The notes beneath the pieces are model-generated. The model saw only the letters and a program-made list of their open reading frames with translations. It did no database searches and was not told the DNA's origin. From Gibbula magus (Eukaryota; Mollusca; Gastropoda; Trochida; Trochidae): a stretch of 64,000 nucleotides of DNA. Both the position numbers and the translations under genes were made by a program. The stretch spans positions 13,160,895 to 13,224,894 of the forward strand of contig OW388298.1 in the NCBI GenBank assembly GCA_936450465.1, written 5' to 3'. Of this stretch, positions 19,610 through 64,000 are shown one piece after another. Numbering within the stretch: the first letter of the stretch is position 1; the number at the start of each line of letters is the position of its first letter.

Positions 19610-19768
19610 AGGGACTTGTATTGTCGAAACTAGCTATTACAAAGAATATGAAGTAGACATCCAGCCCCATATACTATGAAAAAGTATTTATAGTTAATGG
19701 GGCTGGATCGTCGACTTCATATTCTTTGTAATCGGTAGTTTCGACATTACAAGCCCCTGTGCATGGAT
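19610..19768. mobile_element. Foldback MITE (CACAGGGGCTTGTA family)
   Basis: The outer ends GCACAGGGACTTGTA and TACAAGCCCCTGTGC enclose long inner arms (TACAAAGAATATGAAGT-GAC and CCAGCCCC with inverted copies) around ACTATGAAAAAGTA. A relative at 36000-37097 is interrupted by a tandem-repeat element. The inner arms recur at 20637-20781 in the second tandem unit. Confidence 0.7.
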
Positions 19769-31249: not shown

Positions 31250-32274
31250 CCATCTGTCGGCTCGGTGTTGAAGTTTGTTTTCAGTGGACCGAAGAATGTT
31301 CTGTCTAGCGGCTGTAGTTTATGAGTGGTGTGAGGTGGCAGAATGATCAGCACTATCCCATTCTCCCTGGCGTACTTCACTGCATCCAGTGATTTGTGGG
31401 ACGAGTGTCCATCAAGGATAAGAATGCAGGGCTTTTGTTTTGATGGTTTTGCAAACTTACAAAAGTGTTTAAGCCAGTCCAGAAACAGGTCATGGTTTAT
31501 CCAGCCGTTGTCGCTGCAGCGACCAATGCAATCAGCAGGTGCGCCTTTCAGAAGCGCAGGTGGGAGTCGTTTTCTTGGGAAAATCATCATAGGGGGGACA
31601 TATGTACCTGCAGCACTATAGCAGCACAAAACTGTCACATTTCTACCTCGTTCTGCACTTGTTAACTTGCCAACTTGTTTTTCGCCACGTTTCGCAAGAA
31701 TCTTTGAAGGTTTATGCACAACTGTTAGTCCGCGTTCGTCGACGTTCCATATTGAGCTGGCAGTTATTGCATTTGTTTTGATTTCTTGTTCAAGCAAGTT
31801 AAAAAACTTTTCAACTGCTACTTTGTTGAAGCCTATAGCTCTAGCTAAACTAGTAGCTTCTGGTTTTCTGATTGAAAGTTCAGGATGTCGTTTTAAGAAA
31901 CTTTTGAGCCAGTCTCGTCCAGCTTGTTGATGGTCTTTATTGAAGGGATGATCTATGTTATTCGAATCCGCTAACTCGAAAGCCGGCCTACGCACATCAT
32001 TAGGTTGAAGTCCGTAGAAAAGTTGCTGCATCTGTACTATGTGCACCACAAGTTGATCTTCGTACTCTTTGTCAAAGATATTACTAAATCTCCCAAGTTT
32101 TCCTGGGGATTTGACCTGACCTTTCACATGTCGATACAACGTTTTGCGTGGAACTTGATACAAACGTGACGCTTCCCGCACAGATGTCCCAGATGTAATT
32201 GCATCCAACGCCTTGAGTAAGGCATCCTTGCCGTAGCTGGCTTGTGTAGTCTTTCTTTTGTAGTTGCGAACCAT
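31243..32274 (-). CDS. pogo-like transposase, helix-turn-helix and DDE catalytic part
   Basis: The 343 aa frame has a psq-type helix-turn-helix near residues 15-55 (ALDAITSGTSVREASRLYQV, then PRKTLYRHV). A second DNA-binding region follows, then the catalytic core. The three acidic residues lie in IWNVDERGL, CILILDGHSSHK and PPHTTHKLQPLD, with 35 residues between the second and third (DD35D, as in the pogo branch of Tc1/mariner). The frame ends in a short aberrant tail (TEPTDGC) where the next frame (30353-31249) takes over. The only visible lesion is this frameshift, so the copy is young or the shift is a sequencing error. Host genomes often misname such proteins as transporters (clz9-like). 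Confidence 0.85.
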   Translation of the reverse strand: MVRNYKRKTTQASYGKDALLKALDAITSGTSVREASRLYQVPRKTLYRHVKGQVKSPGKLGRFSNIFDKEYEDQLVVHIVQMQQLFYGLQPNDVRRPAFELADSNNIDHPFNKDHQQAGRDWLKSFLKRHPELSIRKPEATSLARAIGFNKVAVEKFFNLLEQEIKTNAITASSIWNVDERGLTVVHKPSKILAKRGEKQVGKLTSAERGRNVTVLCCYSAAGTYVPPMMIFPRKRLPPALLKGAPADCIGRCSDNGWINHDLFLDWLKHFCKFAKPSKQKPCILILDGHSSHKSLDAVKYARENGIVLIILPPHTTHKLQPLDRTFFGPLKTNFNTEPTDGC

Positions 32275-32276
32275 GT

Positions 32277-32735
32277 TTAAAAGTCTTGCATTCGAAGATT
32301 GTCATAATCAGAAGCAATGAGATAGAAGTCTTGACAAACATACACCTCAGGTGAATCCAATAGTCTCTGAATTCTCTGATTACGGAGATACCTGTTCGTT
32401 AAACTAATCACCGACAAAGGATATTCGTCTGGGCCAAATGAACTTGAATGGAATATGTCTATGAGAACATATGTTGATTCAACAGCAAAGAATAAATTGC
32501 TGTATACCAGGTTGACGAAAAGGAAGACTATCTGCATTTGACTGTCATCATCTGGTTCTGAGAAAAACAGCTGTGTAAGGGATTGACAAAGAGAATTGGT
32601 TTCTATTCTTCTTCTTGATAGAGAATTGAAACTCTGACCAATTTCACGAGAATAAAGTTGTCGAACAATACTGCCGCCACTAACTTGCCAATCTAATCCA
32701 TCGACCAACATTATCCTGAAACAAAGATATAACAT
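32277..32735 (-). CDS. Unrecognised 152-aa frame inside the pogo-like element
   Basis: An open frame of 152 codons ends two bases before the transposase start codon on the same strand. It contains IVRQLYSREIGQSFNS, FSEPDDDSQMQIVFLFVNL and RNQRIQRLLDSPEVYVCQDF. Composition looks protein-like (mixed acidic and hydrophobic, few low-complexity runs), but I recognise no family. It may be an accessory protein or upstream exon of the transposon, or a chance frame. Position within the element and strand agreement are the only support. Confidence 0.35.
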   Translation of the reverse strand: MLYLCFRIMLVDGLDWQVSGGSIVRQLYSREIGQSFNSLSRRRIETNSLCQSLTQLFFSEPDDDSQMQIVFLFVNLVYSNLFFAVESTYVLIDIFHSSSFGPDEYPLSVISLTNRYLRNQRIQRLLDSPEVYVCQDFYLIASDYDNLRMQDF

Positions 32736-33488
32736 GGTTTAGACACGGATAGTGTTATTATCTCATTTACATGCTACTTTTAGTTATTATATTTAGACTC
32801 GGAATACCCTATATGCCAACGACAACATCATGTTTATTGGAGTTAACATTTTAGAATTTTTAGACATTAAAACTATTATTTATCATAATTTCACAATCGA
32901 CAAGATCATTACTTAACAAACTATCATAAATCAAAGCTTATTTACAACTCAACCACTTATAATATCAGTTCATATATATAAACAATAATTGGAATTTAAG
33001 GGGACAGGGCGCCACCATGGCGCGCTTTGCCCCATTTAATATTTGTAACAATTTCAGCCACAGTGTAACTGTGCAAACGACGAACGATACTTCATAACTG
33101 TTTTTGTTAACCTCGGTAGACATGCTTTTAAGCAACATATGGATAGATTAATTCCGCCCTATCTATGTATAACAACATTGCCTTTCATTTCACAGAACTC
33201 TTACAGTAATATAGTCAAGTTTCGTTTTTTGCTGCTCTTACCTGTATGCGGCGTGATAATGGCGGCAACGTCGGCTAGCGTGATATGCAACGCTATTGTC
33301 TATTGGCTGAACGTCGCGTGCAGCGTCTCCTAACGGCTACTTTAGAGTAAAATGCGCTTCTCGCTTTGCCCCCATGGCGCGCTTTGCCCCGCTCTCCCCT
33401 ACTGTGTAACAGGAAAACACATTAAAATTAACGGAAAAACATTACTGACTGAAGGTCACGCCTCACGAATACAGAACGTGAGCGTGAT

Positions 33489-34979
33489 ATGGGTAGGCTG
33501 CACGCCGGACAATCCGTTGCGGAAGTTGCGATCGCATTTCGATGCAGCCGACAGACAATTCATGAGCTCAGAACCCGTGTGTCAGGACGTCCGCGTGTGA
33601 TGTCACGCCGAGAGGATGGACAAATCAGGTTACGTCATCTCCGTAATCGTTTCGAGACGGCTGCGTCCATGACCAGACACTTGTTCAGAGGTCGGGTGTC
33701 ACCATCCACTATCAGGAATCGACTGCGGGCTGCTGGTCTGCGAGCCAGGAGGCTCTACACAGGACCCATTTTGACGTCATTTCACCGTCACCAACGTCTG
33801 ATATGGACCCGACAACACGCAAGATGGAATCAGAATCGCTGGAATAACGTTGTTTGTATTGACGAGTCACATTACACACTTAGGTTTGCTGATGGCAGGG
33901 TACGAGTGTGGCGTAGAACACGAGAACGATATGCACACTGTTGTGTTCGAGAGGTGGACAGATTTGGCGGCGTCAGCAGCGTCATGGTTTGGGGTCCTTC
34001 TGTTCCAATTGTCGTTCCCGATTGGTTGTCGTGCAGGGCAACCTTACTGTCGCACAATACAGGGAACAAGTTTTGACACCGGTCCTGATACCGTTCATGC
34101 AACAACATGGTCCAGGGCTGAGTTTTCAACATGATAATGCCACACGCGCAATTTCTTGCGTAACGCCGGTATCGACGTCATGGAGTGGCCATCTCGTTCA
34201 CCAGACCTCAATCCCATAGAACACATCTGGGATGAATTGGGAAGACGACATCCTCGATAATCCAGCGCTATTGTTCCGATAAATCTACACACAAGCGCTG
34301 GAAAACAGTAAGGGTATTTATCCTTAACCTAGTTACCTCCCTTCGCAATGACTCAGCGAAACGCTTGCTTTCTAACAACCAATGAGATCACTTGAAATCA
34401 AGGGTGAAATAACAAGCACTCTCGTGTCAGGATCTTGGCTTTCGCAGTACAGGGATTTTAATCATTTACCTCCACCCGTTTTGATGGACATGAATACACC
34501 GTTCTTCTCGTACAGACTTCTTAAAACTTTCTTTTGAGTTTTGTCAGGTTTTCTACGCTGAATGTGTTACAAACTTTATCGTAATAATCGAGTGAGTCGG
34601 CAGCTGCTATGTTTTTTTCTATAAACAACGGTAGTGATGCGTTTTGATTGGTCGAGTTGTTTACGCAGATAGTGTCTGCGTTTCGTTTCTGATTGGATAA
34701 CGTGGACCCAAGAGGAGGTAACTAGGTTAGGGATAAATACCCTTACTGTTTTCCAGCGCTTGTGTGTAGATTTATCGGAACAATAGCGCTGGATTATCGA
34801 GGATGGGAAGACGATTGAGGCAGCAAATCAACCCACCCCAGACTCTGCAAGCTCTTGGACAGGAACTGGTCAACCAATGGCGGCGACTTCCGGTGCAGGT
34901 CTTCAGGGGAGTTGTGCGGTCGAAGAGACGACGTTGTGTGGCTGTGGTGGCTGTACGAGGCGGTCACACGCGTTATTGA
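33489..34979 (+). pseudogene. Tc1-like transposase, frameshifted and split by a MITE
   Basis: Coding likeness starts slightly upstream (LTNTERERD) and runs MGRLHAGQSVAEVAIAF (helix-turn-helix), SRREDGQIRLRHL, a second HTH (SPSTIRNRLRAAGLRARR), then CIDESHYTLRFADGRVRVWR with the first catalytic Asp. The frame shifts near 34030. QGNLTVAQYREQVL and QHDNA (second Asp) follow, and another shift precedes [20 protein letters not shown] (the catalytic Glu). The coding sequence is then cut at 34248 by a 557-bp MITE and resumes at 34815 with LRQQINPPQTLQALGQELVN, ending at TGA 34977-34979. It is clearly inactive. Confidence 0.88.
34249..34805. mobile_element. MULE-like MITE with 9-bp target duplication
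   Basis: The inverted repeats are about 91 bp with one visible mismatch (CATCCTCGATAATCCAGCGC outermost). GGAAGACGA is duplicated on both sides (34240-34248 and 34806-34814). Long TIRs with a 9-bp duplication are the Mutator-like pattern. The interior (about 370 bp) is non-coding. Confidence 0.85.
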
Positions 34980-35999: not shown

Positions 36000-37097
36000 A
36001 ACACAGGGGCTTGTATTGTTAAAAATTAGAAATCATATGAAGTCGACGATCCAGCCCCTTATACTATAAAAAATAGAGCCATGGGCTCTGTAGCTCATCA
36101 GGATTTTATTGATTTATTATCTAAGGTTGAATATCTAAGTTATCTCAAGTAATACATTGTTAACAAGCAAAATAATATTGGTTTTAGATCATGATCCCTG
36201 TGACCCACATTTGGAGTCACAGGGTCACCAATCCTACAATTAAGAATGACCTTTGACCAAAGAATCTCTATACAACATTTCACCTTTCTAGAGATTTACA
36301 TATAAACTGGAGAAGAAGATGAAAATAGGTTTTTGGGTCATGACCCGTGACAAAGATTGGGGTCACAGGGTCACAAAATCTACAATTTAGAATCCCCATT
36401 GGCCAAGGAGTCTGCACACAACTTTTCAGCTCTCTAGACCTTTCAGAACTGGAGAAGAAGATGAAAATAGGTTTTTAAGGATGTGACCCCTGTGACCTCA
36501 TTTGGGGTCACGGGGTTAGAAATCTATAGTTTAGAATCCCCATTGGCCAATGAGTCTGCACACAACTTTTCACCTCTCTAGACCTTTTGGAACTGGAGAA
36601 GAAGATGAAAATAGGTTTTTAAGGATGTGACCCCTGTGATCCCATTTGGGGTCACGGGTTCACACAATCTACAATTTAGAATCCCCATTGGCCAATGAGT
36701 CTGCACACAACTTTTTAGCTCTGTAGAACTTTTGGAACTGGAGAAGAAGATGAAAATAGGTTTTTAAGGATGTGACCCCTGTGACCCTAATTGGGGTCAC
36801 GGATTCACGAAATCTACAATTTAGAATCCCCATTGGCCAAGGAGTCTGCACATAAAATTTCAGCTCTCTAGAGTCATTGGTTCTGGAGAAGAAGTCGAAA
36901 AAGCGAAAAGTTTACAGACGGATGGACGGAAGGACGGACGGACGCCGAACGCCATGCCATGCCATAAGCCCATCGGGCCTTTCAGGCCTGATGAGCTAAA
37001 AAGTATAGTATAAGGGGCTGGATCGTCGACTTCATATAGTATAAGGGGCTGGATCGTCGACTTCATATGCTTTCTAATTTCTACAAGCCCCTGTGTT
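36000..37097. mobile_element. Foldback MITE (CACAGGGGCTTGTA family) split by a pearl-like element
   Basis: The ends AACACAGGGGCTTGTA and TACAAGCCCCTGTGTT are flanked by TGGA on both sides (35996-35999 and 37098-37101). The inner arms GAAGTCGACGATCCAGCCCC and TATACTATAAAAAA are the same family as 19610-19768. The right arm is partly duplicated (two copies of GGGGCTGGATCGTCGACTTC at 37015-37067). The centre holds the element at 36067-37000. Confidence 0.75.
36067..37000 (-). mobile_element. Tandem-repeat-cored (pearl-like) element 3, reverse strand
   Basis: Read on the minus strand it has the same left end (AGCTCATCAGGCCTGAAAGG), CCGT run (near 36925), about five core units of 144-145 bp and right end (CCATGGGCTCTGTAGCTCAT on the plus strand at 36079) as element 2. 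It sits in the loop of a foldback MITE. Confidence 0.75.
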
Positions 37098-37351: not shown

Positions 37352-40300
37352 ATGGTTTTGTTTTGCTGCTCCTTCACGCTATGGAATGTAATGAAGACTA
37401 TGATTAATGTGATTAATATAAGTCCACTAGCTACAGGAGAGGTGGCCAAGTTTGGTGTGTTACAGTGTGGAGACCTGTGTCTGTATCGGTTCGGATGTCA
37501 TTCAGTCAATTTCAGTCTATCGACTCTGTCCTGTCAGCCGATCTATTCTGATAACACGGAGAGCATGGGATCAGTCAACATCAGAATTACAGAGGACAAT
37601 TCCGTGGTAACAATGAACAAGGTATTTACAAATTTAAGAAATCGAAGACGAGTTGGCGTGCTTTATCGTTGATTAAAACACAGCAGGGAGCACAAAACAT
37701 GAATGGCGCAGCCTCAGTTATTTATGCTCCCTGCTATGTTTTATTCAGCGATAAAGCACAATAACGAGTCTTCTATTTCTTTTATCAGATGCGCTTAAAC
37801 ACTTACTCACTTTTATATAAAATCCGTTGAGATATTATGTTATTTGTATAAACTATATTTTGAAAATATCAAAACCTCCCGTCGAATAACAAATTCACTA
37901 GCAATTGAACACGCAAAGTGGCGTAAAATATGACGTCATTTGCTGAACGACACTCTAATTAACGTCCTATATCACGAGTATGTTATATTGTCTCATAAAC
38001 CCATTGACCGCCTGTGTTTTACTGCCTTTGATATGTTATATATTGCATTATATTTTAAATAACTTAAGATAGGGACAAGTAAAATATCAAATAATGTTAA
38101 TACGGTATCTAATGGTAAGTTGAGATTACGAGCTTTCTTCAGTAATGCATACATTGCTTTTTGTGCATTATCACACAGTGCTTTTAGTCCGATTTTAAAT
38201 AGTCTATTCCTATGAATAAATTATCCCAAGTATAGACTATTTCTAAGTTTGTATTACCATATAAGAATGTTAATAAGAGAATTCACCAGGTCCTCTTCGA
38301 ACAATAAGAATTTTGATTTTTATCTGTATTCATTTTAATTTCATCGAAAATGAATATTTACCAAACGTAGTGAAAGATTTTTGTAAGCCCTCCGGTGAAA
38401 CATAAAACATAACGGTGTCATCAGCGTTTAGTAATATAATTAATTGGATAAACACAACAACATCAGAATCGTTTGGGCACTTGATATTGGCATATATTCC
38501 TTCGCAGCCTTTTGATAACAATTATGGTTCCAAATCACTTAAAATTATTGAAACCCGTTACCCCTTTTATCTGATAAATGCCCATAACCAAAGATCGGGA
38601 TAACACTTACTTATCTTTAATAGAAATAGGATGATCATTTTAAAGGAACTTTACAGTATATGCGGTGGTGGGGTTTCAATAAGAGAGATACAATATTGAA
38701 TTGAGAATTGGTTTAATCTATTTAGAAAAAGGAATAGAAAATAATTTAGACATTCCGACGTCAAATAGATACCCTAAATGCTTAACAATTGTCTATAGAT
38801 TTCAGATAAATGATGGCCTATGCAATGTTCTTGTTGTAATAAGATATACAATCGAATAAACATATTGATATAGTTGTAGTTTTTTTTATTGAAGGGAATA
38901 AAGAATAATACTAACAATATAAGAACTAATTTCATTTAATAACTGTTTGTGTTCGACGAATGTAAATTTGATCAAATATGTTCTTATCAATGAAAATGAT
39001 TATTATTATTTATAAGGTGACCTTTATTGAAAAAATGATGCTTTTAATTATTACCATTATGTAAATATTTCTATTATTTTCTCAGGTCACAGACCCGGTC
39101 AAAAGTGATGCCCCATGTGCTGAGAGATTTGAAATATTCCAGACTCACAAAGGAAAACCTCTGTGTCGTTCATGTAGGTGTTTTTTCTTTCTTTCTGTTC
39201 TATAGATGAAATACGAACTGAAGTTCTCCGGGATATTGGTATACAAAGGGTATATTGTAGTATCCTAATGTAGAATTTTGCCAAATTAATCGGACTAGTC
39301 CATTCTTACTTGATGTTATGAGCATGTGCAGTGGACGCCAAAGTATGTTGTTTAAGTTGTAGAAGTTTTGGCATGTAGAAGTTTAGGGAGGTCACCTGCG
39401 GGAGATAGCAGATAACATAGTAATAAGGCATCGACTAGATCAAACGTATTTGTACAATTTTATGAATACTAGTATTTTTGTATCGAATGAGATATTACAA
39501 ATACGAAAAATACGTATTGTTGCTTACCTTTCAGATGAGGAACGAAAAGGGATCCATGTCACTCCCCGTATTTTTATCTTCTCCCCGCCCAGACAAGGTC
39601 AGCCGCCCTCACCCGTGGTTCAGTTGTTCGTTAAAAACAAAACTGTTAGCGTCTATCCATATATAAATATAAGGTACCCGGTAGCAGCTGCTTACATTGC
39701 TACTAATCAAGTACTGGTGATTGCTAAATCAGTAAGAGAATCACCTTTTTCAAAAAACGTAAAACCACAAAATTGTAAACTTCAATTCTTTCGCATGGAC
39801 AGCTCAGAGTGTTTTCACACAGAGGAAATCTGTGCGGGGAACAACATGGCTGTGGATGAATCGAAGGGGTTAGTTTTTTTACGAAGCAAATACCCATTCA
39901 ATGGTATCATGGTTATGACTAAAGAAGGGAAAGATATAAAGCTAGTTGTAAAGACCAAGTCAGGACAAGGCAGCATTGCCGTGGATCAGTCAAGATCTTT
40001 GGTTTTCCTTTCTTGTCCAAATAGTCGAGGTAAACGTAATAAAATAGTACAATACAACTATACTGGTAGCAGAGTAAAGAACGTTCTCGTCACTCGCAAA
40101 CAACTTCAAACATGGATGAGCTTTGATCCTAACTGGAACGCATTATACTATCATCTTGAAATGGAAATTCTGATGTACTTTCCCAGTAATACCTCGAGAA
40201 AAAGTTTTAAGGACATACACAATTTCGCAATATTCTTTCACGTTATTGGAGATGAGATGTACTTCATGCAATATCAATATCAACATTCCCTAATAGTATT

Positions 40301-40379
40301 AAAGAAGAATGGACATCGAGAAAAAGTGAACATAAAAAATCAAAACCTTTATGGCATAACATCATGTCTTGTGATGTAA
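37352..40379 (+). CDS. Predicted protein with PAN/apple-like region and YWTD-like repeats (3 exons)
   Basis: Exons: 37352-37621, 39086-39173 and 39535-40379; phases 0 and 1 join cleanly, and the donors are GTATTT and GTAGGT. Exon 1 encodes GVLQCGDLCLYRFGCHSVNF and LSTLSCQPIYSD, a Cys pattern like a PAN/apple domain (a carbohydrate- or protein-binding fold). Exon 3 has repeated strands NMAVDESKGLVFLRSKYPF and SIAVDQSRSLVFLSC with IVQYNYTGSRVKNVLV, resembling LDL-receptor class B (YWTD) propeller blades. It ends CLVM-stop at 40377-40379. The N-terminus is uncertain. The ATG at 37352 gives a weakly hydrophobic start, and an acceptor-like TCTCCAG at 37319-37325 leaves room for an upstream exon. 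Intron 1 contains a foldback and a LINE remnant. The domain calls come from pattern reading, not a search. Confidence 0.6.
37636..37783. repeat. Foldback element, copy 1
   Basis: Arms GAAGACGAGTTGGCGTGCTT and ATAAAGCAC-AACGAGTCTTC (with GCAGGGAGCA inside) are inverted copies. A second copy is at 43248-43373. This one starts 14 bp after the exon 1 donor of the PAN/YWTD gene. Confidence 0.85.
38000..38620 (-). pseudogene. LINE reverse-transcriptase remnant
   Basis: Minus-strand conceptual fragments include LLNADDTVMFYVSPEGLQKS (from the YADD catalytic box with Y changed to N). Further along are MNTDKN, NAQKAMYALLKKARNLNLPL and FDILLVPILSYL across frameshifts. These are the palm/thumb features of a CR1/Jockey-like non-LTR element. 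It is fully degraded and lies in intron 1 of the PAN/YWTD gene. Confidence 0.7.
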
Positions 40380-44734: not shown

Positions 44735-45475
44735 GTCATTTGGTGTGAACAGCTGGGACTACGGTCAAATGACGTCATGGTAACAATAGCATGACGTCAT
44801 GCAACAATCGTTTGACGTCACTCAAGTCAATACAGCTTTTGGTCGGACTCGGGCTGGAGTCAATATGCTTTTCTGTCGACGGCCACGTGATCGCCTCTCG
44901 CTGGAAAAATATGCTCACATACTATTTCGCAATGTCCTTTCATCCAGTATAGAAATCAGCGTTTCTTCAGAGTATTAAAAAGGGGATAAGGGGATCGAAA
45001 AAAGTATATACTATCATGTACATGTATATTGTCAAGGTCAAACATTGATACAACACTATACAATTATAGACTGGTGATGAGGTCAATACCTGTTTTTATG
45101 GACCCGAGAAAACAATATTGACCAAGGACGAAGTCCGCGGTCAATATTGTTTTCTCGGGTCCATAAAAACAGGTATTGACCTCATCACCAGTCCATAATT
45201 GTTTTATTACGTATTTGACATAGGAACGAAAAGAAAACAATGAAATACAGTAAAAAATGTAATTCGATTTGAACAGCTGGAACTACGGTCAGATGACGTC
45301 ACGGTTACAATAGCATGACGTCATGCAACAATCGTTTGACGTCATGCAACAATCGTTTGACGTCACTCAAGTCAATATTGCTTTTGGTCGGACTCGGGCT
45401 GGAGTCAATATGCTTTTCTGTCGACGGTCACGTGATGGCCTCTCGACCAATCAGATCGCTGGAAAAATATGCTCA
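44735..45475. repeat. Direct-repeat unit pair around a foldback
   Basis: 44748-44925 and 45272-45475 are direct copies. Shared parts include CATGACGTCATGCAACAATC, GTTTGACGTCACTCAAGTCA, GGTCGGACTCGGGCTGGAGT and TGGAAAAATATGCTCACATA. The second copy has an extra CAACAATCGTTTGACGTCA unit. A near-perfect foldback (45059-45202) lies between them. It is probably one composite DNA element. Confidence 0.7.
45059..45202. repeat. Foldback element
   Basis: CAATTATAGACTGGTGATGA, then GGTCAATACCTGTTTTTATG and GACCCGAGAAAACAATATTG, are followed by the complete inverted set around CCAAGGACGAAGTCCGCG. Arms are about 68 bp with one visible mismatch. Confidence 0.9.
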
Positions 45476-45872
45476 CATAATAAAACGTGATATTTAAGAA
45501 ATTTTCAACTTCATGAAATAAAAACTTTAACTTCATATCTTCCTTTTATTATTTTACTCTTCTAGCAAGAAAGATCGGTTGCAAAAGGGAATTTGGGTCA
45601 TAATGATAATCAAAAAGTGCATGGGTAATGATATGCTATTTTAAAATTGTCTTGAAAGTTTGGATTGACCGACTGCACAGATCGGGAAGAACATGCATAT
45701 ATTTGGATGTCATGGCAACCCTCTGATGTCACCGTTTGATGTCATTTCTGATTTAAATTGTTCTGTAACGTCATAGCATGATGATCAGTAAACCGGTTGG
45801 GGATTCAAAACGTGTCCAGACTTTTGTTGTTCATTTATCTATCATTTGAGTTATGAAGACGTTGTTTGTGTA

Positions 45873-45873
45873 T

Positions 45874-45925
<52 letters not shown>
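45873..45925. repeat. (ATACAT)n microsatellite
   Basis: About eight tandem ATACAT hexamers lie next to the Penelope-like remnant. Confidence 0.95.
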
Positions 45926-45944
45926 TCCATTTATTCCAACTTCC

Positions 45945-47284
45945 CAATGCAAGGCAAGGCATAACTCTTGCCAGTCTCCATTACTAACTACATCAAAACT
46001 GACTATAGTAGAATCTTTGGCCACTTGTGTTGGTAGATTACATAGGAAATCTATATCATCAACTTTTGACATGTTTACACAAAGGTTTAAGAATTATATC
46101 TAAATAATTGCTAAGACGTTGTGTACAGATTTCGGGTCCCCCAACTATCGGCCTAAACTAGCCCATAAAAGTTAGCAGTTTTGGATTCAAAATTGGTTAA
46201 GTAATCCTTTTCCTTATCTAAAAATTCATAAGAGTAATTTTCAATTAATTTCTTAACTTTGTTACAAACAGCCTTTTCTTTAGTTGCAGATGATTTTTGA
46301 TAATATTCTGTATTATTCAAAATGGACAATAATAAGAACTGTTCATTATAACTATAGCCCCTCCTTTATCCGCTTCCTTAATTATAATATCCGTATTATT
46401 AAAGAGGTCGCGGAGAGCTTTCAATTCCCCTTTAGTTAAATTAGAATTCTTTTTGTTAACATGAACAGGATTGTTTTCAATCCTTTGACAAAATTCATCT
46501 AGATATTTATCTTTGTTGTAAGGCGGTTTGAATTTAGATTTATTTCTGACTAAAATTTCATCCCTTATATTGCAATCTTACTCACCATCCCCTTCTATGT
46601 CACTTTCGTCAGTAGCAAAACATTCTGATAGTCGTACTTTCTTGAAAAAGCTTTCATATCTAATTCAGTATCATTTATATTTGGTTTGGGAGTTGGGGTA
46701 AATTTAAGACCCCTTTTCAAAAGTTTAATTTCATTATCAGAAAGGGGATGGTGAGAAAGATTAATGATTTTTGGGTCTACCCTTTTGGAGGTTTCCAGTT
46801 CCTCGGATAACCGTTTTTTTCTCTGGGAGCGTCCTCTTTCTAAAAAATACTTATTAACTGCTCTACCTACAAAGGTTACATTGTTATTGTCATTCTCATT
46901 TACAGGTTTACAGTCTTTCTTTTCAACAGTCTTTTGTTTTCTCACTGGTACTGGTGTCCGTACTGTGCGCTTGTTGTCTCGGTTTAATCGGGCGTTAATC
47001 CGGCGCTGGATTGTCAGTGTGGGCATCATTCACCTGATGAGACCCGTCATGGTCGAAAGCATGCTTGTGAATTATGAATAAATCATCGTGATTTCTTCGA
47101 CAATTGTATTTCCTATATGAGACCTGAGGGTTGGACAAGTTTGAACTGAATTGTGTTGAATAAAATCAATTCCCAAACGCAAGGCATAACTCTTGCCAGT
47201 CTGCATTACTGGCTGCTTTAAGCCTTGGGGTATATCCCTCGCTTTGTTGTGCCTAGATAGTGAATCGCTGCACAAGAAATTCAT
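45945..47284 (-). pseudogene. Penelope-like retroelement remnant
   Basis: On the minus strand from 47029 the frame gives a basic N-terminus. IINLSHHPLSDNEIKLLKRG and LKFTPTPKPN follow, then YNKDKYLDEFCQRIENNP, LTKGELKALRDLFNNTDIII, KEADKGGAIVIMN and EKDYLTNFESKTANFYGL. After a shift come IVGGPEICTQRLSNYLDIIL, KPLCKHV and DDIDFLCNLPTQVAKDSTIV with SFDVVS. These are consecutive N-terminal and early-RT motifs of Penelope-like elements. The copy is frameshifted and ends before the RT catalytic box. There its sequence runs into a ~50-bp piece of a ~100-bp repeat that is also present upstream at 47172-47275. These may be the element's terminal repeats. A hammerhead motif lies just upstream of the frame at 47024-47076. 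Confidence 0.8.
47024..47076 (+). ncRNA. Hammerhead ribozyme motif (type I, short stem III)
   Basis: Stem I: ATTCAC (47028-47033) pairs with GTGAAT (47067-47072), extended by CAT/ATG across one mismatch. Then come the core CTGATGA (47034-47040), stem II GACC/GGTC with a six-base loop, and the core GAAA (47055-47058). A minimal stem III follows inside the palindrome AGCATGCT, with U at 47065 and 47066 before stem I. Every invariant core position is present, and cleavage is predicted after 47066. Short-stem-III hammerheads are known from Penelope-like elements. Here the motif is on the strand opposite the adjacent coding remnant. Confidence 0.8.
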
Positions 47285-47850
47285 AGTGGGCTTGGATTTC
47301 TAAACACACATTTCTTAAGGAAATACTTCAAGGCCTAAATCAGCCAGTACATATATATATATATATTTCTAAGATGCCTAGCGGCTAGAACAATCGAAAT
47401 AAAAGTATTTTATCAGACGATAAAGGTATAGTTTTTTGTGATGACGTAACAATTGAATGACGTTTCCGCTCCCCTCGTAGTCACGTGTGCCCATGGTAAC
47501 CCAACGAAAGAGGGCAGTTGAAAAGACCGTGTTTTTCTGGAAATGATAATGTCCTAAAACATCGGTAGCGTTGTTATAACAATTATTGAAGGAATGTGTT
47601 CTTTTGTATCCGAATTAATCTTAAATTTTAAGCTACATTTGTACTTGAACAAAAACGACGAAATCCGCATTAGGCAACCTCAGGAACCACTATGACGTCA
47701 CAACAGAACAATGACGTCATAGTCGCTGTTGTCGCACGGCTCGTCAGTTGGCCCTGATCATGGATTAATAATATTAAGGAAGTAAACTCTATTTTTATTG
47801 CAAAATTACTCAAAGTAGAATGTTGTGTTATGGGTTATCTTAGAAAAGTA

Positions 47851-48014
47851 ATAAAGTTCGCTGTACCCCAATGTGTTTTGTAATAAAGTATAGTTTTGCC
47901 CTGAACTATTATAACGTCAAAGTACTCGGACTACCGTCCTCGTACTTTAACTATAATAGTTCAGGGCAAAACTATACTTTATTACAAAACACATTGGGGT
48001 ACAGCGAACTTTAT
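47851..48014. repeat. Long near-perfect foldback
   Basis: ATAAAGTTCGCTGTACCCCA and following sequence (AATGTGTTTTGTAATAAAGT, ATAGTTTTGCCCTGAACTAT) is repeated in inverted order to 48014. Arms are about 75 bp around a short GGACTACCGTCC centre. Confidence 0.9.
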
Positions 48015-48082
48015 CATCCAAAACTGGCATCCACAGTAGATATCGCTTGTGTGAGATCAAGCGATATCTACAAGCGATATCT

Positions 48083-48935
48083 ACATTGTAGATATCGCTA
48101 CAATCAAATCGTCATAATGTTATTACATCATCAGTTAATGACATCACAAGGTTTTGACATCACTGAGAACACTGCTGACAATGTTATGACGTCACAAAGT
48201 TGATGACGTAACAATGCTATGAGGCCACAATGCTGATGACGTCACAATGCTATGACATCACTGAGCTCACTGCTGAAGTAGCAACATGGCAGTTTTGTGT
48301 TGCAGATATGTTCATTATTTTGCTAATAATTGTTGAAGAATGATTTTGAATGATAAATAAAATCTCACCCTCGTGTCTTCTGATATCAAATATATCAACA
48401 CTCGTTGATTAAAGTAAAAATAACCTCGGCAAGCCTCGGATATTTGTAACTTTAATCAACTCGTGTTGATATATTTGATATCAGAAGACACTTGGGTGAG
48501 ATTCTCTATTTATTTCTTAAATATATACATTGTAGATATCGCTACAATCAAATCGTCACAATCATATTATTTCATCAGTTAATGACATCACAAAGCTTTT
48601 GCATCACTGAGAACACTGGTGACAATGCTTTGACGACACAATGGTGATGACGTAACACTGCTATGACGTCACAATGCTATGACATCACTGAGATCACTGC
48701 TGAAGAAGCAAAATGGCTGTTTTGTGTTTCAGCTATGTCATTCTTGGGATAATTATTGTTGAAGAATGATTTTGAATGATAAATAAAATCTCACCCTCAT
48801 GTCTTCTGATATGAAATGATCAACACTCGTTGATGAAAGTAAACATATCCTCGGCGAGCCTCGGATATTTGCAACTGTAATCAACTCGTGTTGATATATT
48901 TGATATCAGAAGACACTTGGGCGAGATTCTCTATA
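48083..48935. repeat. Tandem duplication (~440 bp) with foldbacks and CRE-like motifs
   Basis: Copies at 48083-48510 and 48528-48935 begin ACATTGTAGATATCGCTACA. Each contains a block of TGACGTCACAATGCTATGAC-like units, then a foldback with arms CTTCTGATATCAAATATATC and TCAACACTCGTTGAT. The second copy carries several substitutions. Confidence 0.8.
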
Positions 48936-49989: not shown

Positions 49990-52511
49990 ATGATTTCTAA
50001 CGTCCTCCTCGTTGTACTCGTTGTCTACTTGACGCTGGTTTACATTCAGGTAAGTACTAGTGAGCTCCCTGACGCTGGTTTACATTCAGGTAAGTACTAG
50101 TGAGCTCCCTGACGCTGGTTTACATTCAGGTAAGTACTTGTTGGCTCCTTGACGCTGGTTTACATTCAGGTAAGTGCTTGTGGGCTCCCTGATGCTGGTT
50201 TACATTCATGTAAGTACTTGTGGGTTCATTGACGCTGGTTTACATTCAGGTAAGTGCTTGTAGGCTCCCTGACGCTGGTTTACAATCAGGTAAGTACCTG
50301 TGGGCTCCCTGACGCTGATGTACAGTTAGGTAAGTACCTGTGGGCTCCCTGACGCTGATGTACAGTTAGGTAAGTACTTGTGGGTTCATTGACGCTGGTT
50401 TACAATCAGGTAAGTACTTGTGGGTTCATTGACGCTGGTTTATATTCAGGTAAGTACTTGTGGGTTCATTGACGTTGGTTTACAATGAGGTAAGTACTTG
50501 TGGGCTCCCTGACGCTGGTTTACATTCAGGTAAGTACTTGTGGGTTCATTGACGCTAGTTTACAATCAGGTAAGTACTTGTGGGTTCATTGACGCTGGTT
50601 TACAATCAGGTAAGTACTTGTTGGTTCATTGACGCTGGTTTACATTCAGGTAAGTACTTGTGGGTTCATTGACGCTGGTTTACAATCAGGTAAGTACTTA
50701 TGGGCTTCCTGACGCTGTTTTACATTCAGGTAAGTACTTATGGGCTCCCTGGCGCTGGTTTACATTCAGGTAAGTACTTGTTGGCTCCCTGACGCATGTT
50801 GTACATTCAGGTAAGTTCTTGTGGGTTCCCTGACGCTGGTTTACATTCAGGTAAGTACTTGTGGGCTCCCTGACGCTGGTTTACATTCAGGTAAGTGCTT
50901 GTGGGCTCCCTGATGCTGGTTTACATTCAGGTAAGTGCTTGTAGGCTCCCTGATGCTGGTTTACATTCAGGTAAGTACTTGTTGGCTCCCTGACGCATGT
51001 TGTACATTCAGGTAAGTTCTTGTGGGTTCCCTGACGCTGGTTTACATTCAGGTAAGTACTTGTGGGCTCCCTGACGCATGTTGTACATTCAGGTAAGTGC
51101 TTGTAGGCTCCCTGACGCTGGTGTTCATTCAGGTAAGTACTTATTGTTCACAATGTTTCTCTTTTCATCCAGCAATACAAAAGGGTACCTGGTAAATGTT
51201 GTATTGAGACAGGACCAGGGTGATAGTGTCGGTAGCGCATTGAGCATGCACTAGTGGGTGGAAAAGTGCGCCATATAGATATCAATTATATATCTGCTGA
51301 GGTCTATGGATTTTTATTCGCAAAAAAACGATAAGAACACGATGGTAATTCACGACGTAAATTAAATGTTAACTGTTTAAATTCACAGGCAGGAGGTATA
51401 CCGTATGGCCATGTTGAACAGCACCCAGGATCAGGTAAGTCTTCTGAATGTATGATCAACCCTTAATGCGGTAATTTAGCAATAATTCCCAAATCAAGAA
51501 ATTGATATCATTAAAGGCAACAATCAGCATTTATCTTAATCACTAGCTTTGCTATATATGAGACATGGGGTGAAATTGAGTATATCAAACAAAGAAATTC
51601 CTACAAATTTATTTCACAGAATGAACGCATATCAACATATAATGACAATACGGCTTCAGGAGCGTTGGTAATATCTTTTCTGAAATAATGAAAGATACAA
51701 GAGATTTCTAAATCAGCTCTTGAGGTGGAGATTCAGCAGTTTGTGTGTAGATATAGTATGATAAGTTTTAGCCCTTCAAACAATGATTGTTTCACCAATA
51801 TACTATTGGCACCTGTATTATTACACTTACACTTTTTCTTTCATGACACGATCACAGGAAGGAGGAACACTGACTTTAAAGGGCGATCGCGATTCATTGA
51901 AACTGTAAGTTGTATGAATAATAATAACAATAAAATGTTTGATCTCTAATTTAAGATGCACACATTTACTTTTCACCTGGTCACAATGCATCACGTGCAT
52001 TTCCTAACAACTACAGATTAGTAAAAGGTCCTTCTGTAAGTTTTGATTTACAAATAACGTATTCGAGATTTTATTAAGGACACCCAGAAAATGAAGGTTA
52101 AACAACTGAAGAAGAAACATTCATAAAGCGTCAGTACAAGCTAAGCATTTTGAAATGTTTACTTCAACAAGCTAGCGTACACAACTCTCGTGCCACTATT
52201 ACCATTCCATCGAGCATACGACGCCATTGCGACCTCACTGCTCGCAAAAGTTACCTCTCTCACTCGCCATCGGTCGCATATTGTCGCAGAGAGGTTCGCT
52301 TGGTGCCATTTGTATTGTACATGTTGGTCATGTTTGTCTACAGGAGGGTCACGAGAAGGTTGCAGCCCACTCTGAGGAAGGAGAGAGAGGGGGGGAGGGT
52401 GAAGAGGAATACAACGGGACGGATGGGGGGCGTGATGGAGGCCTGGTTGGTAGAAGAGCTGTTATGCTGGGACGAATGAGTACTGCTGTCCAAGGACGAT
52501 CTCTAGCCAAG
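49990..52511 (+). CDS. 5' part of a secreted (prepropeptide-like) protein gene, 4 exons seen
   Basis: Exons: 49990-50049, 51389-51434, 51858-51904 and 52344-52511. All are flanked by AG and GTAAGT/GTAATT, and phases 0, 1 and 0 join. Exon 1 is a signal peptide (MISNVLLVVLVVYLTLVYIQ). Exons 2-3 give AGGIPYGHVEQHPGSGRR and NTDFKGRSRFIET. Exon 4 gives an acidic Gly-rich stretch (EEGERGGEGEEEYNGTDGG) and GLVGRRAVMLGRMSTAVQ. The GSGRR and VGRR sites look like amidating or dibasic processing sites, so a neuropeptide or hormone precursor is possible. I recognise no family, so this is inference. No stop codon or last exon is found before a LINE remnant in the following intron, and the gene probably continues beyond. 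The exon 1 donor has been amplified into the minisatellite at 50050-51140. Confidence 0.55.
50050..51140 (+). repeat. 40-bp minisatellite made of exon 1 end plus splice donor
   Basis: About 28 units of 40 bp (41 bp where GACGCATGTTG occurs) carry GTAAGTACTTGTGGGCTCCC followed by TGACGCTGGTTTACATTCAG. The last 20 bases of each unit copy the end of coding exon 1 (49990-50049). Nearly every unit has CAG|GTAAGT at the same place. Variants include TTAG|GTAAGT and one with CATGTAAGT near 50210. Confidence 0.9.
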
Positions 52512-52654: not shown

Positions 52655-54180
52655 AATGTGAACAATTATAGAGGTATCTCACTGCTAACATATTTGGTAA
52701 ATTATTTACATATATAATTAATAAAAGGTTAGTTTTAGCTGGTTTTAGAGTGGGCTGTCAACTGTTGACAACATATCATCCTAAAAGCTTTAGTTAACAG
52801 ATACCTCAATATCAAATGGCTTTTTACTCTGTACAAAGGGAAAAATTATGGAACCTTTTAAAATCCCATGGCCTTAGCACAAAAATGAATAAACTTTTGG
52901 GTAGCATTTATTTGAACGTAGCGGTATGTGTACGTAATAATAATGAAATATCAAACACTTTCATTAGTTAGTTAGGGGTGAGCTAGACAAGGGTACATTT
53001 TAAGTCCATTTCTCTTTACCGTTTTCATAAATGAACTATCTGCACAACAGAAAAACGACTGTGATACTCAGTTTCATCCGGATATTACCCAGATATGTTT
53101 ACTATTGTTTGCGGATGATATTATCCTATTCTCGCCAACAATCAAAGGCTTACAGAGTCAAATTAATGAACGTGATTGTTACTGTGATAACTGGAAATTG
53201 ACAGTAAACATGACAAAAGTTCTTGTTTTTAAAAATGGATGCAAGTTATTAAGTAATGAAAATTGGTCCTTTAAAAGTTTTAGGAAACAGTTCATACCAA
53301 TCTTAAGGTACTCCCAATTTTAATATATATGGTCAGAATTATGGGGCGTACACCACTTTGATGCCATAGAAAAGATTCATTTATATGCATGGAAAACGTA
53401 TTTGGGCATAAAGATAAACACATCTAGTCTGATGGTGTATGGGGAATGTGGAAGATTTCCTCTGTATCTATATTTGAATCTGAAAGTTATTAAATATTGG
53501 CTGAGACTTATTGACATGCCCTCGGACAGGTTACCAACAAAACTTTATAACATGATTATAGTTTATGATAAATTTGGTAAAATTGGGTGACTGGTGTAAG
53601 AAAACTAGCTACTTTTCAATTGTGGTTTTGGTCTTACTTGGAACAACCAAAATGTGATTTCCAAATCTACTTTTATGCTTTCATTAACCAAGAATATATA
53701 TATAAATCATGTGATGAACATCTTAATCTACTCAACGCTATAATAAACTTCGGTATGAACAAAGATTTAAATCTCTCCTGGAGAGACCTGCAAATGCATA
53801 TGTTACTTTTCACCTTCCTATGATTTATTTCACAGTACATGATTTTTGCAATGAGATGTACAAGAAGATGACAAATGATTTCCTAATATACTCGAGGTAT
53901 ATTTAACAAATTAGCAAATTAACAAATAAATCCGTGAATAAGTCCATGGTAAGAGTGGGGCTTTATCAAAAGGAATACCATGGAAATTTTTTAGAGTTAC
54001 TTTCGGGTTGCAATTATAAAATAAGTATGATCTACTTAAAGTGCCATAACCTTGACAAGAATGAGTTAATTGGATATAAAGCAATTGTTGACATCTGGTA
54101 TCCGTATTTCAGACATCCGGTCCTGAGGGAGGACAGGGGAGGGCGAGAGAGATGGTTCGAATGGATGTCCTCTCAATAGA
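52655..54180 (+). pseudogene. Non-LTR retrotransposon (LINE) reverse-transcriptase remnant
   Basis: Fragments in order across frameshifts and stops: NNYRGISLL (52660), YQMAFYSVQREKLWN, then FLFTVFINELSAQQ and the catalytic box LLFADDIILFSPTIKGLQSQ (53095). WKLTVNMTK, YGECGRFPLYLYLNLKVIKY and WLRLIDMPSDRLPTK follow. The order and motifs are those of a CR1/Jockey-type RT with its C-terminal region. It is inactive and lies downstream of exon 4 of the secreted-protein gene. Confidence 0.8.
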
Positions 54181-54605: not shown

Positions 54606-55089
54606 CAGAGTCGTGCAAAAAGTATTCGGACGGTGACGCCATTTCCATAGACTTACATGTTAATTAAGTCTGGGATAAATAATTTTCATAGATAGGATAT
54701 TTGTCACACCCTATTCACATTTATCACGTTTGTGAGGAATCATCTTGGCTACAACCTCATAATTTATGTTTAATTTTCCGTTTTATATATATAGGAAATG
54801 ACAGTAAGTTCATCAACATATAAACATAGTTGTGAAAACATTTAACATGGCGATCTATGGGACCCGTTTTTATTTAATGTACACACGTAGGTAAATCGGA
54901 TGACATTTGTCGTCAGAAAATTTAATCCAAATTATGTACTTCAAGCTGAGATGTTTTTCAATCAAGCTGGGAAAATTTGACATTGATCCAACCAGAATTT
55001 ATTTCATGAAAATTATTTATCCAAGACTAAATAAACATGCAAGTCTATGGAAATAACGTCACCGTCCGAATACTTTTTGCATCACTCTG
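54606..55089. mobile_element. Tc1/mariner-type MITE
   Basis: The ends CAGAGTCGTGCAAAAAGTAT (then TCGGACGGTGACG) and the inverted copy ending GCATCACTCTG are flanked by TA (54604-54605 and 55090-55091). The inner arms (CCATAGACTTACATGTT-A-TTAAGTC) are also inverted. It is 484 bp with no coding capacity. Its right end merges into the minisatellite that follows. Confidence 0.85.
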
Positions 55090-55370
55090 TAGTCGCAGCA
55101 ACGCATCACTCTGTAGTCGCAGCAACGCATCACTCTGTAGTCGCAGCAACGCATCACTCTGTAGTCGCAGCAACGCATCACTCTGTAATCGCAGCAACGC
55201 ATCGATCTGTAGTCGCAGCAACGCATCACTCTGTAGTCGCAGCAACGCATCACTCTGTAGTCGCAGCAACGCATCTACAATGTAGTCGCAGCAACGCATC
55301 ACTCTGTAGTCGCAGCAACGCATCACTCTGTAGTCGCAGCAACGCATCTACAATGTAGTCGCAGCAACGG
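55076..55370. repeat. 24-bp minisatellite seeded at a transposon end
   Basis: Units of GTAGTCGCAGCAACGCATCA plus CTCT repeat about ten times. Two units instead read CATCTACAATGTAGTCGCAG, the form without the transposon terminus. The frames through the array on both strands are repeat artefacts. Confidence 0.9.
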
Positions 55371-55479
55371 ATCACATAGAATGTTTACCAGATATTTGAC
55401 CAACTGTAAAACACGGATATTTGACGAACTGCGAAACACGTAATAAAACCATGTTGCGAGTATAGCCTTTCTTTTGCCC

Positions 55480-59353: not shown

Positions 59354-62300
59354 TTCTGAAACTAAATGACACATGGGCGAGAACCAGTCATACTCATGTT
59401 AGTTGTTGTTGTCATCTGAACCTAAATGACACATGGGCGAGTACCAGTCATACTGCATGTTAGGAGTTGTTGTCATCTGAACCTAAATGACACATGGGCG
59501 AGTACCAGTCATACTGCATGTTAGTTGTTGTTGTCATCTGAACCTAAATGACACATGGGAGAGTACCAGTCATACTGCATGTTAGTTGTTGTTGTCATCT
59601 GAACCTAAATGACACATGGGCGAGTACCAGTCATACTGCATGTTAGTTGTTGTTGTCATCTGAACCTAAATGACACATGGGCGAGTACCAGTCATACTGC
59701 ATGTTAGGAGTTGTTGTCATCTGAACCTAAATGACACATGGGCGAGTACCAGTCATACTGCATGTTAGTTGTTGTTGTCATCTGAACCTAAATGACACAT
59801 GGGAGAGTACCAGTCATACTGCATGTTAGGAGTGGTTGTCATCTGAACCTAAATGACACATGGGAGAGTACCGGTCATACTGCATTTTAGGAGTTGTTGT
59901 CATCTGAACCTAAATGACACATGGGCGAGTACCAATCATACTGCATGTTAGTTGTTGTTGTCATCTGAACCTAAATGACACATGGGCGAGTACCAGTCAT
60001 ACTGCATGTTAGGAGTTGTTGTCATCTGAACCTAAATGACACATGGGAGAGTACCAGTCATACTGCATTTTAGGAGTTGTTGTCATCTGAACCTAAATGA
60101 CACATGGGAGAGTACCAGTCATACTGCATGTTAGTTGTTGTTGTCATCTGAACCTAAATGACACATGGGCGAGTACCAGTCATACTGCATGTTAGGAGTT
60201 GTTGTCATCTGAACCAAAATGACACATGGGAGAGTACCAGTCATACTGCATTTTAGGCGTTGTTGTCATCTGAAACTAAATGACACATGGGCGAGTACCA
60301 GTCATACTGCATGTTAGTTGTTGTTGTCATCTGAACCTAAATGACACATGGGAGAGTACCAGTCATACTGCATTTTAGGAGTTGTTGTCATCTGAACCTA
60401 AATGACACATGGGCGAGAACCAGTCATAGTGCATGTTAGTTGTTGTTGTCATCTGAACCTAAATGACACATGGGCGAGTACCAGTCATACTACATGTTAG
60501 GAGTTGTTGTCATCTGAACCTAAATGACACGTGGGCGAGTACCAGTCATACTGCATGTTAGTTGTTGTTGTCATCTGAACCTAAATGACACATGGGCGAG
60601 TACCAGTCATACTGCATGTTAGTTGTTGTTGTCATCTGAACCTAAATGACACATGGGCGAGTACCAGTCATACTGCATGTTAGTTGTTGTTGTCATCTGA
60701 ACCTAAATGACACATGGGCGAGAACCAGTCATACTGCATGTTAGGAGTTGTTGTCATCTGAACCTAAATGACACGTGGGCGAGTACAAGTCATACTACAT
60801 GTTAGGAGTTGTTGTCATCTGAACCTAAATGACACGTGGGCGAGTACCAGTTATACTGCATGTTAGTTGTTGTTGTCACCTGAACCTAAATGACACATGG
60901 GCGAGTACCAGTCATACTGCATGTTAGGAGTTGTTGTCATCTGAACCTAAATGACACATGGGCGAGTACCAGTCATACTGCATGTTAGGAGTTGTTGTCA
61001 TCTGAACCTAAATGACACATGGGCGAGTACCAGTCATACTGCATGTTAGGAGTGGTTGTCATCTGAACCTAAATGACACATGGGCGAGTAACAGTCATAC
61101 TGCATTTAAGGAGTTGTTGTCATCTGAACCTAAATGACACATGGGCGAGTACCAGTCATACTGCATTTTAGGAGTGGTTGTCATCTGAACCTAAATGACA
61201 CATGGGCGAGTACCAATCATACTGCATGTTAGTTGTTGTTGTCATCTGAACCTAAATGACACATGGGCGAGTACCAGTCATACTGCATGTTAGGAGTTGT
61301 TGTCATCTGAACCTAAATGACACATGGGCGAGTTCCAGTCATACTGCATGTTAGGAGTTGTTGTCATCTGAACCTAAATGACACATGGGAGAGTACCAGT
61401 CATACTGCATTTTAGGAGTTGTTGTCATCTGAAACTAAATGACACATGGGCGAGTACCAGTCATACTGCATGTTAGTTGTTGTTGTCATCTGAACCTAAA
61501 TGACACATGGGAGAGTACCAGTCATACTGCATTTTAGGAGTTGTTGTCATCTGAAACTAAATGACACATGGGCGAGTACCAGTCATACTGCATGTTAGTT
61601 GTTGTTGTCATCTGAACCTAAATGACACATGGGAGAGTACCAGTCATACTGCATTTTAGGAGTTGTTGTCATCTGAACCTAAATGACACATGGGCGAGAA
61701 CCAGTCATACTGCATGTTAGTTGTTGTTGTCATCTGAACCTAAATGACACATGGGCGAGTACCAGTCATACTGCATGTTAGGAGTTGTTGTCATCTGAAC
61801 CTAAATGACACATGGGCGAGTACCAGTCATACTGCATGTTAGGAGTTGTTGTCATCTGAACCTAAATGACACATGGGCGAGTACCAGTCATACTGCATGT
61901 TAGGAGTGGTTGTCATCTGAACCTAAATGACACATGGGCGAGTAACAGTCATACTGCATTTTAGGAGTGGTTGTCATCTGAACCTAAATGACACATGGGC
62001 GAGTACCAGTCATACTGCATGTTAGGAGTTGTTGTCATCTGAACCTAAATGACACATGGGCGAGTTCCAGTCATACTGCATGTTAGGAGTTGTTGTCATC
62101 TGAACCTAAATGACACATGGGAGAGTACCAGTCATACTGCATTTTAGGAGTTGTTGTCATCTGAAACTAAATGACACATGGGCGAGTACCAGTCATACTG
62201 CATGTTAGTTGTTGTTGTCATCTGAACCTAAATGACACATGGGAGAGTACCAGTCATACTGCATTTTAGGAGTTGTTGTCATCTGAAACTAAATGACACA

Positions 62301-64000
62301 TGGGCGAGTACCAGTCATACTGCATGTTAGTTGTTGTTGTCATCTGAACCTAAATGACACATGGGAGAGTACCAGTCATACTGCATTTTAGGAGTTGTTG
62401 TCATCTGAACCTAAATGACACATGGGCGAGAACCAGTCATACTGCATGTTAGTTGTTGTTGTCATCTGAACCTAAATGACACATGGGAGAGTACCAGTCA
62501 TACTGCATGTTAGGAGTTGTTGTCATCTGAACCTAAATGACACATGGGCGAGTACCAGTCATACTGCATGTTAGGAGTTGTTGTCATCTGAACCTAAATG
62601 ACACATGGGCGAGTACCAGTCATACTGCATGTTAGGAGTTGTTGTCATCTGAACCTAAATGACACATGGGCGAGTACCAGTCATACTGCATGTTAGGAGT
62701 TGTTGTCATCTGAACCTAAATGACACATGGGCGAGTACCAGTCATACTGCATGTTAGTTGTTGTTGTCATCTGAACCTAAATGACACATGGGCGAGTACC
62801 AGTCATACTGCATGTTAGGAGTTGTTGTCATCTGAACCTAAATGACACATGGGCGAGTACCAGTCATACTGCATGTTAGTTGTTGTTGTCATCTGAACCT
62901 AAATGACACATGGGAGAGTACCAGTCATACTGCATGTTAGGAGTGGTTGTCATCTGAACCTAAATGACACATGGGAGAGTACCGGTCATACTGCATTTTA
63001 GGAGTTGTTGTCATCTGAACCTAAATGATACATGGGCGAGTACCAATCATACTGCATGTTAGTTGTTGTTGTCATCTGAACCTAAATGACACATGGGCGA
63101 GTACCAGTCATACTGCATGTTAGGAGTTGTTGTCATCTGAACCTAAATGACACATGGGAGAGTACCAGTCATACTGCATTTTAGGAGTTGTTGTCATCTG
63201 AACCTAAATGACACATGGGAGAGTACCAGTCATACTGCATGTTAGTTGTTGTTGTCATCTGAACCTAAATGACACATGGGCGAGTACCAGTCATACTGCA
63301 TGTTAGGAGTTGTTGTCATCTGAACCAAAATGACACATGGGAGAGTACCAGTCATACTGCATTTTAGGCGTTGTTGTCATCTGAAACTAAATGACACATG
63401 GGCGAGTACCAGTCATACTGCATGTTAGTTGTTGTTGTCATCTGAACCTAAATGACACATGGGAGAGTACCAGTCATACTGCATTTTAGGAGTTGTTGTC
63501 ATCTGAACCTAAATGACACATGGGCGAGAACCAGTCATACTACATGTTAGGAGTTGTTGTCACCTGAACCTAAATGACACATGGGAGAGTACCAGTCATA
63601 CTGCATGTTAGTTGTTGTTGTCATCTGAACCTAAATGACACATGGGAGAGTACCAGTCATACTGCATTTTAGGAGTTGTTGTCATCTGAACCTAAATGAC
63701 ACATGGGCGAGTACCAGTCATACTACATGTTAGGAGTTGTTGTCATCTGAACCTAAATGACACGTGGGCGAGTACCAGTCATACTGCATGTTAGTTGTTG
63801 TTGTCATCTGAACCTAAATGACACATGGGCGAGTACCAGTCATACTGCATGTTAGTTGTTGTTGTCATCTGAACCTAAATGACACATGGGCGAGTACCAG
63901 TCATACTGCATGTTAGTTGTTGTTGTCATCTGAACCTAAATGACACATGGGCGAGAACCAGTCATACTGCATGTTAGGAGTTGTTGTCATCTGAACCTGA
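59354..64000. repeat. 61-bp satellite array with higher-order structure, running off the window
   Basis: About 76 head-to-tail units of 61 bp contain GTTGTCATCTGAACCTAAAT, GACACATGGGCGAGTACCAG and TCATACTGCATGTTAG. Two main variant sites (GTTAGTTGTTG against GTTAGGAGTTG, and GGGCGAG against GGGAGAG) mark unit types. Rare variants repeat at 3111 bp (51 units; for example ACCGGTCAT at 59870 and 62981, GAACCAAAAT at 60211 and 63322). Others repeat at 732-854 bp (12-14 units). Unit length is not a multiple of three, and no frame is kept. Confidence 0.95.

Follow-up and report, generated by a model that had tools for sequence, protein, structure and literature searches.

A 40-bp minisatellite carrying 28 GTAAGT donors at a predicted exon 1/intron 1 junction, probably of the mirage type

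Results and Discussion

A 40-bp repeat lies across the end of a predicted first coding exon

A 64-kb stretch of DNA from contig OW388298.1 (the window, to which all positions refer) carries at 50030-51142 a tandem array in which a 40-bp piece containing the splice donor GTAAGT has expanded into 28 copies and undergone internal turnover. We consider it likely that this array is a minisatellite of the type known as "mirages" in amphioxus, and that its seed took in the 3' end of a predicted first coding exon together with the beginning of the following intron. The seed is suggested by two observations: the units start 20 nt before the donor that closes a hydrophobic, ATG-started frame of 20 codons, and outside the array CAGGTAAGT occurs in the window only at the next predicted donor.

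Tandem Repeats Finder (TRF) gave a period of 40 bp on the plus strand, with 27.8 copies, 89% matches and a score of 1625. When the array was split at its donors, 28 GTAAGT hexamers were obtained, the first at 50050 and the last at 51133, and the distance between successive donors was 40 nt in 24 steps and 41 nt in three. The original prediction had described a junction-bearing tandem array of about 28 sites with a GTAAGT donor in each unit, and both statements were borne out (28/28 for the donor). The triplet preceding GTAAGT was CAG in 24 units, TAG in two, GAG in one and CAT in one, and AG thus stood directly before the donor in 27 of the 28. CAGGTAAGT was found 25 times on the plus strand of the window and never on the minus strand; 24 of these copies are inside the array, a clustering far beyond chance, and the remaining one, at 51432-51440, is the donor of predicted exon 2.

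The 28 unit rows comprise 23 distinct sequences, indicating that the array is not a single unit stuttered by the assembler. Units 1 and 2 are identical and, near the 3' end of the array, self-comparison detected 123 identical bases recurring 201 bp apart (starts at 50754 and 50955). These results indicate that the array has been turned over in blocks.

Unit 1 begins 20 nt before the first GTAAGT, the unit being made of 20 nt of predicted exon and 20 nt of intron, and the final 20 nt of predicted exon 1 are the first half of unit 1. Read from the ATG at 49990, predicted exon 1 gives MISNVLLVVLVVYLTLVYIQ. Its hydrophobicity was reached by only 3 of the 925 ATG-started open segments of 20 codons on both strands of the window, itself included. 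Predicted exons 1 to 4 (Table 1) are jointly open over 107 codons, and the gene starting at 49990 is probably real. The intron holding the array would measure 1,339 nt if it ended at 51388, or 1,123 nt if it ended at 51172. The acceptor at the latter position scored 6.71, which places it in the top 0.7% of the 3367 AGs in the window (the splice matrices are approximate). It is possible that 51172 serves as an alternative 3' splice site, and the intron would then be almost wholly array. A reverse transcriptase remnant (52982-53323, Pfam) lies shortly 3' of predicted exon 4.

Splice signals of the repeat units

The donor score was 8.69 in 24 of the 28 units and 4.32 in the lowest. The unit acceptors had a median score of 1.53 (28 units), and 22 of the 27 AG-bearing units ranked between the top 3.9% and the top 13.6% of the 3367 AGs of the window, array included. 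For comparison, six fibrillarin acceptors from elsewhere in the window scored 11.28, 5.68, 1.66, 1.61, -1.67 and -3.80; similarity to the human protein placed five of the exons, the Gly/Arg-rich exon whose acceptor scored 5.68 was inferred by eye from the flanks, and the precise boundary is uncertain for the one scoring -3.80. Most units therefore appear to resemble middling native acceptors of this locality. Three unit acceptors were poor (-4.61 twice and -7.08) and one unit has no AG; the acceptor of the last unit is the second best of the array (2.45). Pyrimidines occupied 9 to 11 of the 17 scored acceptor positions in 26 of the 28 units and eight in the other two. A branch-like yTNAy motif with its A 18-19 nt upstream was present in 27 of the 28 units, unit 1 counted, and the stricter CTRAY motif in 17. 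The earlier description of each unit as an acceptor-like CAG after a pyrimidine run thus holds for the AG (27/28) and largely for CAG (24/28), although the pyrimidine content is moderate and one unit lacks the AG.

Consequences of donor choice for the predicted protein

Direct use of a later donor would keep the upstream units in the mRNA. With the predicted exons, donors 3 to 28 (26 of the 27 later donors) bring in an in-frame stop at 50098, and donor 2 causes a frameshift followed by a stop in later predicted exons. The suggestion that any upstream donor could be used without changing the protein is wrong for direct use, which frameshifts or stops the predicted protein at all 27 later donors. 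On this gene model the predicted protein is preserved by donor 1 alone, or by re-splicing that takes out the retained units.

The repeat most likely grew on the existing junction by slippage or unequal exchange. Its tolerance would be explained if, by analogy with amphioxus, the outermost donor is normally used. Re-splicing could contribute too, since almost all units finish with an AG preceded by a branch-like motif. If a later donor were used first, its AG would abut the next exon behind the branch-like motif with donor 1 still present, and a second splicing event joining donor 1 to that AG could restore the correct mRNA. The likeness of the units to acceptors is, on this account, a by-product of copying a CAG/GT junction and not a purpose-built ratchet.

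Relation to mirage minisatellites and other known systems

The amphioxus mirages, which the original prediction had overlooked, appear to be the closest known kind, and the array fits them by analogy. According to PMC3087553, the name was given to tandem repeats across exon-intron boundaries in amphioxus Adh3, with further cases among the globins. These repeats are unstable in length, AG/GT signals are present in many of the copies, and the unit size in Adh3 ranges from 10 to 72 bp. RNA data for Adh3 and the globins suggest in the same source that mirages leave regular splicing undisturbed. PGBD5 and troponin C were added to the amphioxus genes with mirages in PMC3902484. The array likewise covers the 3' end of an exon, here predicted exon 1, and its copies carry splice signals (GTAAGT in 28/28, AG/GTAAGT in 27/28 and CAG/GTAAGT in 24/28), as many copies of the Adh3, BflGb6, BflGb9, PGBD5 and troponin C mirages are described as doing. 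Its 40-bp unit falls within the reported Adh3 range. On the other hand, the BflGb6 haplotypes described have six and three units against 28 copies with invariant GTAAGT here.

Human genes in segmental duplications are reported, in the text available of PMC2812944, to contain internal tandem repeats, some of them at exon-intron boundaries, which may form novel introns. They resemble the array in showing that minisatellites can occupy such a boundary, with units of 30 bp on average, but comprise on average four units and 160 bp, and no run of identical donors is described in that text. Recursive splice sites of Drosophila and vertebrates share with the array the AG/GT pair and a second donor downstream (about 50 nt on in flies); they differ in that the array has 28 sites in tandem in a short intron, with donors alike. 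Intron gain under the Rogers model (fission yeast, ATP2A1; PMC4974935) also involves AGGT in tandem copies, as in 27 of the 28 units here, whereas the seed of the array looks like a pre-existing exon-intron junction. Intron 3 of an abalone TSSK1-like gene holds a long minisatellite too, with a 27-bp unit, and intronic minisatellites are reported from an earthworm metallothionein; in the passages available neither is described as lying at a splice site.

The kind was found under the name mirage for amphioxus only, with related boundary repeats in human genes, and if the host is not an amphioxus the array would add a long case to it. Its 28 near-identical donors at one boundary form a natural test of splice-site choice in which, if the gene model is right, nearly every wrong choice carries a coding penalty. 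The locus bears on the preference for the outermost donor, on clean-up by re-splicing and on the tolerance of a minisatellite that includes coding sequence.

Recursive splicing and other explanations

The original prediction had likened the units to recursive splice sites. The layout agrees: AG is juxtaposed to GT in 27 of the 28 units, and a further donor that could define a short recursive exon follows 40-41 nt on in all 27 steps. As set out in PMC8605326, fly ratchet points consist of an AG/GT pair followed by a donor that delimits a recursive exon about 50 nt long; of the two donors, the one at the ratchet point is generally the stronger. Donor strength alone does not account for all reporters there, indicating that the rule is not absolute. 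Recursive splicing in flies is apparently confined to very long introns (PMC6110457). Here the competing donors are alike (GTAAGT in all units, scoring 8.69 in 24 of 28) and the intron is short at either of its two possible lengths. Between adjacent units a donor lies 22 nt from the branch-like A, a distance that grows to 62 nt when one unit is skipped. A human study puts the shortest productive donor-to-branch length of one intron at 46 nt and regards more than 60 nt as low risk (PMC11291888), whereas splicing is reported for human introns as short as 43, 49 and 56 nt (PMC4463651). A 40-nt step from one unit to the next is accordingly graded improbable from its geometry, adjacent units probably being too close, while splicing that skips one unit should be possible. 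A juxtaposed acceptor-donor score modelled on PMC6110457, with approximate matrix values, had a unit median of 0.79, matched by only 7 of the 450 AGGT sites that lie on either strand beyond the array, and only 2 of the 28 units reached 0.8. Since AG/GT sites arise automatically when any CAG/GT junction is copied, no special function or design is needed to account for them. We do not assign the array to the recursive-splice-site family, and we regard as unlikely a true recursion in which exon 1 joins the AG of some unit and then uses that unit's donor, once or repeatedly, so that 40-nt recursive exons are recognised and skipped.

The array could also act as a poison or decoy, partial use of the later donors yielding RNAs with a frameshift or a stop that would lower or tune output, to an extent set by copy number. 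This would agree with the stop at 50098 or the frameshift that every later donor brings to the predicted exons, and with the high score shared by most donors, but amphioxus mirages are said to leave the mRNA undisturbed (PMC3087553 and PMC3902484), and we hold this reading to be quite improbable. The array might instead be a self-correcting cassette: whichever of the 28 donors was used first, re-splicing from donor 1 would restore the mRNA, selection would maintain GTAAGT and copy number would be free to drift. Nearly every donor choice would indeed leave a junction with an AG preceded by a branch-like motif; the chances of this reading also seem low. Birth of the intron in place, by tandem duplication of an AGGT-bearing exonic piece so that the first GT became its donor and the last AG its acceptor, is the known Rogers model. 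Fission-yeast introns that stretch over a number of copies of a 24-bp AGGT segment are described (PMC4974935), and the acceptor of the last unit is the second best of the array; the strong separate acceptor at 51172 and the predicted one at 51388 mean that the intron need not end in the array. We hold such a birth to be very unlikely. There may, finally, be no gene at all, but a satellite whose unit holds CAGGTAAGT by chance. Tandem repeats are abundant in the window (33 rows in TRF, partly overlapping) and the predicted protein has no homologue, yet CAGGTAAGT is expected in a given 40-bp unit about once in 7,000 per strand, as estimated from base composition, and it closes a signal-peptide-like frame with in-frame predicted exons downstream; a gene-free origin is therefore judged improbable. 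The functional alternatives, recursion and the poison array, share the anatomy of the mirage-type minisatellite, and the probabilities assigned to them overlap with it.

Several points weigh against a mirage-type minisatellite seeded on an existing junction. It rests on a gene that is predicted, if probable. The acceptor at 51172 leads to a stop 16 codons on, and the acceptor of predicted exon 2 is weak (0.71). No stop-bearing last exon of the predicted gene was identified, the predicted protein had no Pfam match, and a homologue search with its 107 amino acids gave seven candidates, none at E <= 1. A second frame of the window (39387-40376) gave 460 candidates, none at E <= 0.01, suggesting that the database may hold few relatives and that a missing homologue means little. 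The self-correction step would be weakened by the exon junction complex, which in flies is reported to repress re-splicing (PMC8184009). In addition, GTAAGT is invariant in the 26 internal units while 20 of the 40 columns vary (hypergeometric P 0.010, 1 of 40 circular windows being equally conserved; P 0.022 and 2 of 40 windows for AG plus GTAAGT). This is a weak hint of constraint over pure neutrality, and weaker still because the units share descent.

Other readings of the array were tried. The array contains 17 exact copies of the self-complementary AAGTACTT, which the rest of the window lacks. An RNA structure hiding the later donors was rejected: the 641-nt array RNA 50050-50690 was less stable than 20 shuffles (z +3.4), and donor 1 was no more accessible than the other donors. 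An alignment of a degenerate 29th unit ending at 51172 beat shuffles (P 0.011), a result that the acceptor consensus explains in part, and we do not claim a 29th unit. The idea that the minus strand of the array is coding was also rejected, as its only open stretches of 50 aa or more measure 60 and 86 aa. Known RNA families gave no match in the window at the gathering score.

Table 1. Features of the array and of the predicted gene around it
Feature	Position	Strand	Basis
First coding exon (predicted) of 20 codons (60 nt), resembling a signal peptide	49990..50049	+	ATG-opened frame, hydrophobicity
Minisatellite, 27.8 units x 40 bp, probably seeded on the predicted exon 1/intron 1 junction	50030..51142	+	TRF, unit listing
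Donor 1, CAG/GTAAGT, sole donor preserving the predicted protein when used directly	50050..50055	+	Frame analysis, 28 donors
Units 2-28, acceptor-like part: yTNAy resembling a branch site, then a few pyrimidines and AG (but CAT in the unit at 50210)	50072..51132	+	
Donors 2-28, GTAAGT in 27/27	50090..51138	+	Unit listing
Higher-order duplication in the array	50754..51077	+	123 bases exact, 201 bp apart
Putative intron directly after the array, ending in the strong acceptor TTTCTCTTTTCATCCAG	51143..51172	+	Acceptor score, translation
Predicted exon 2, 46 nt, donor CAG/GTAAGT	51389..51434	+	Splice scores, frame
Predicted exon 3, 47 nt	51858..51904	+	Splice scores, frame
Predicted exon 4, 168 nt	52344..52511	+	Frame

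Other features of the window

Upstream of the gene with the array, at 44769-48688, lies a cluster of the palindrome TGACGTCA, which we take to be CRE-like. It occurs 16 times in the window against 0.74 expected from base composition; 12 of the 16 copies are between 44770 and 48664, and the copies lie partly in short tandem repeats.

Mobile-element remnants were detected with Pfam at 31243-32301 (minus strand), 33453-34076, 26755-27093 and 52982-53323, the matches being to a DDE/Psq transposase, a Tc3-type transposase domain, a tyrosine recombinase (phage integrase family) and a reverse transcriptase. The mobile elements and the gene structure suggest an animal host. A piece resembling a short interspersed nuclear element (SINE) is present near 54317; a search with a SINE consensus found nothing at E 1e-3. 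The SINE Nin domain is described as conserved in metazoans (PMC11121367).

A 212-aa open frame is found at 19698-21349 in two copies 1,013 bp apart, a recent tandem duplication; the one copy scanned had no Pfam match. Among the tandem repeats reported by TRF are arrays of a 145-bp unit at 22684-23195, 24794-26503 and 36192-36901, the last opposite in orientation to that at 24794-26503 by consensus, a 24-bp minisatellite of 12.3 copies at 55079-55375, and a satellite with a 61-bp unit and 76 copies at 59355-63998, which reaches the end of the window.

The fibrillarin gene spans 7348-17529, with exons at 9505-17529 and five exon matches 72-89% identical to human. Upstream of these matches is a Gly/Arg-rich frame that has short tandem repeats of its own at 7374-7523.
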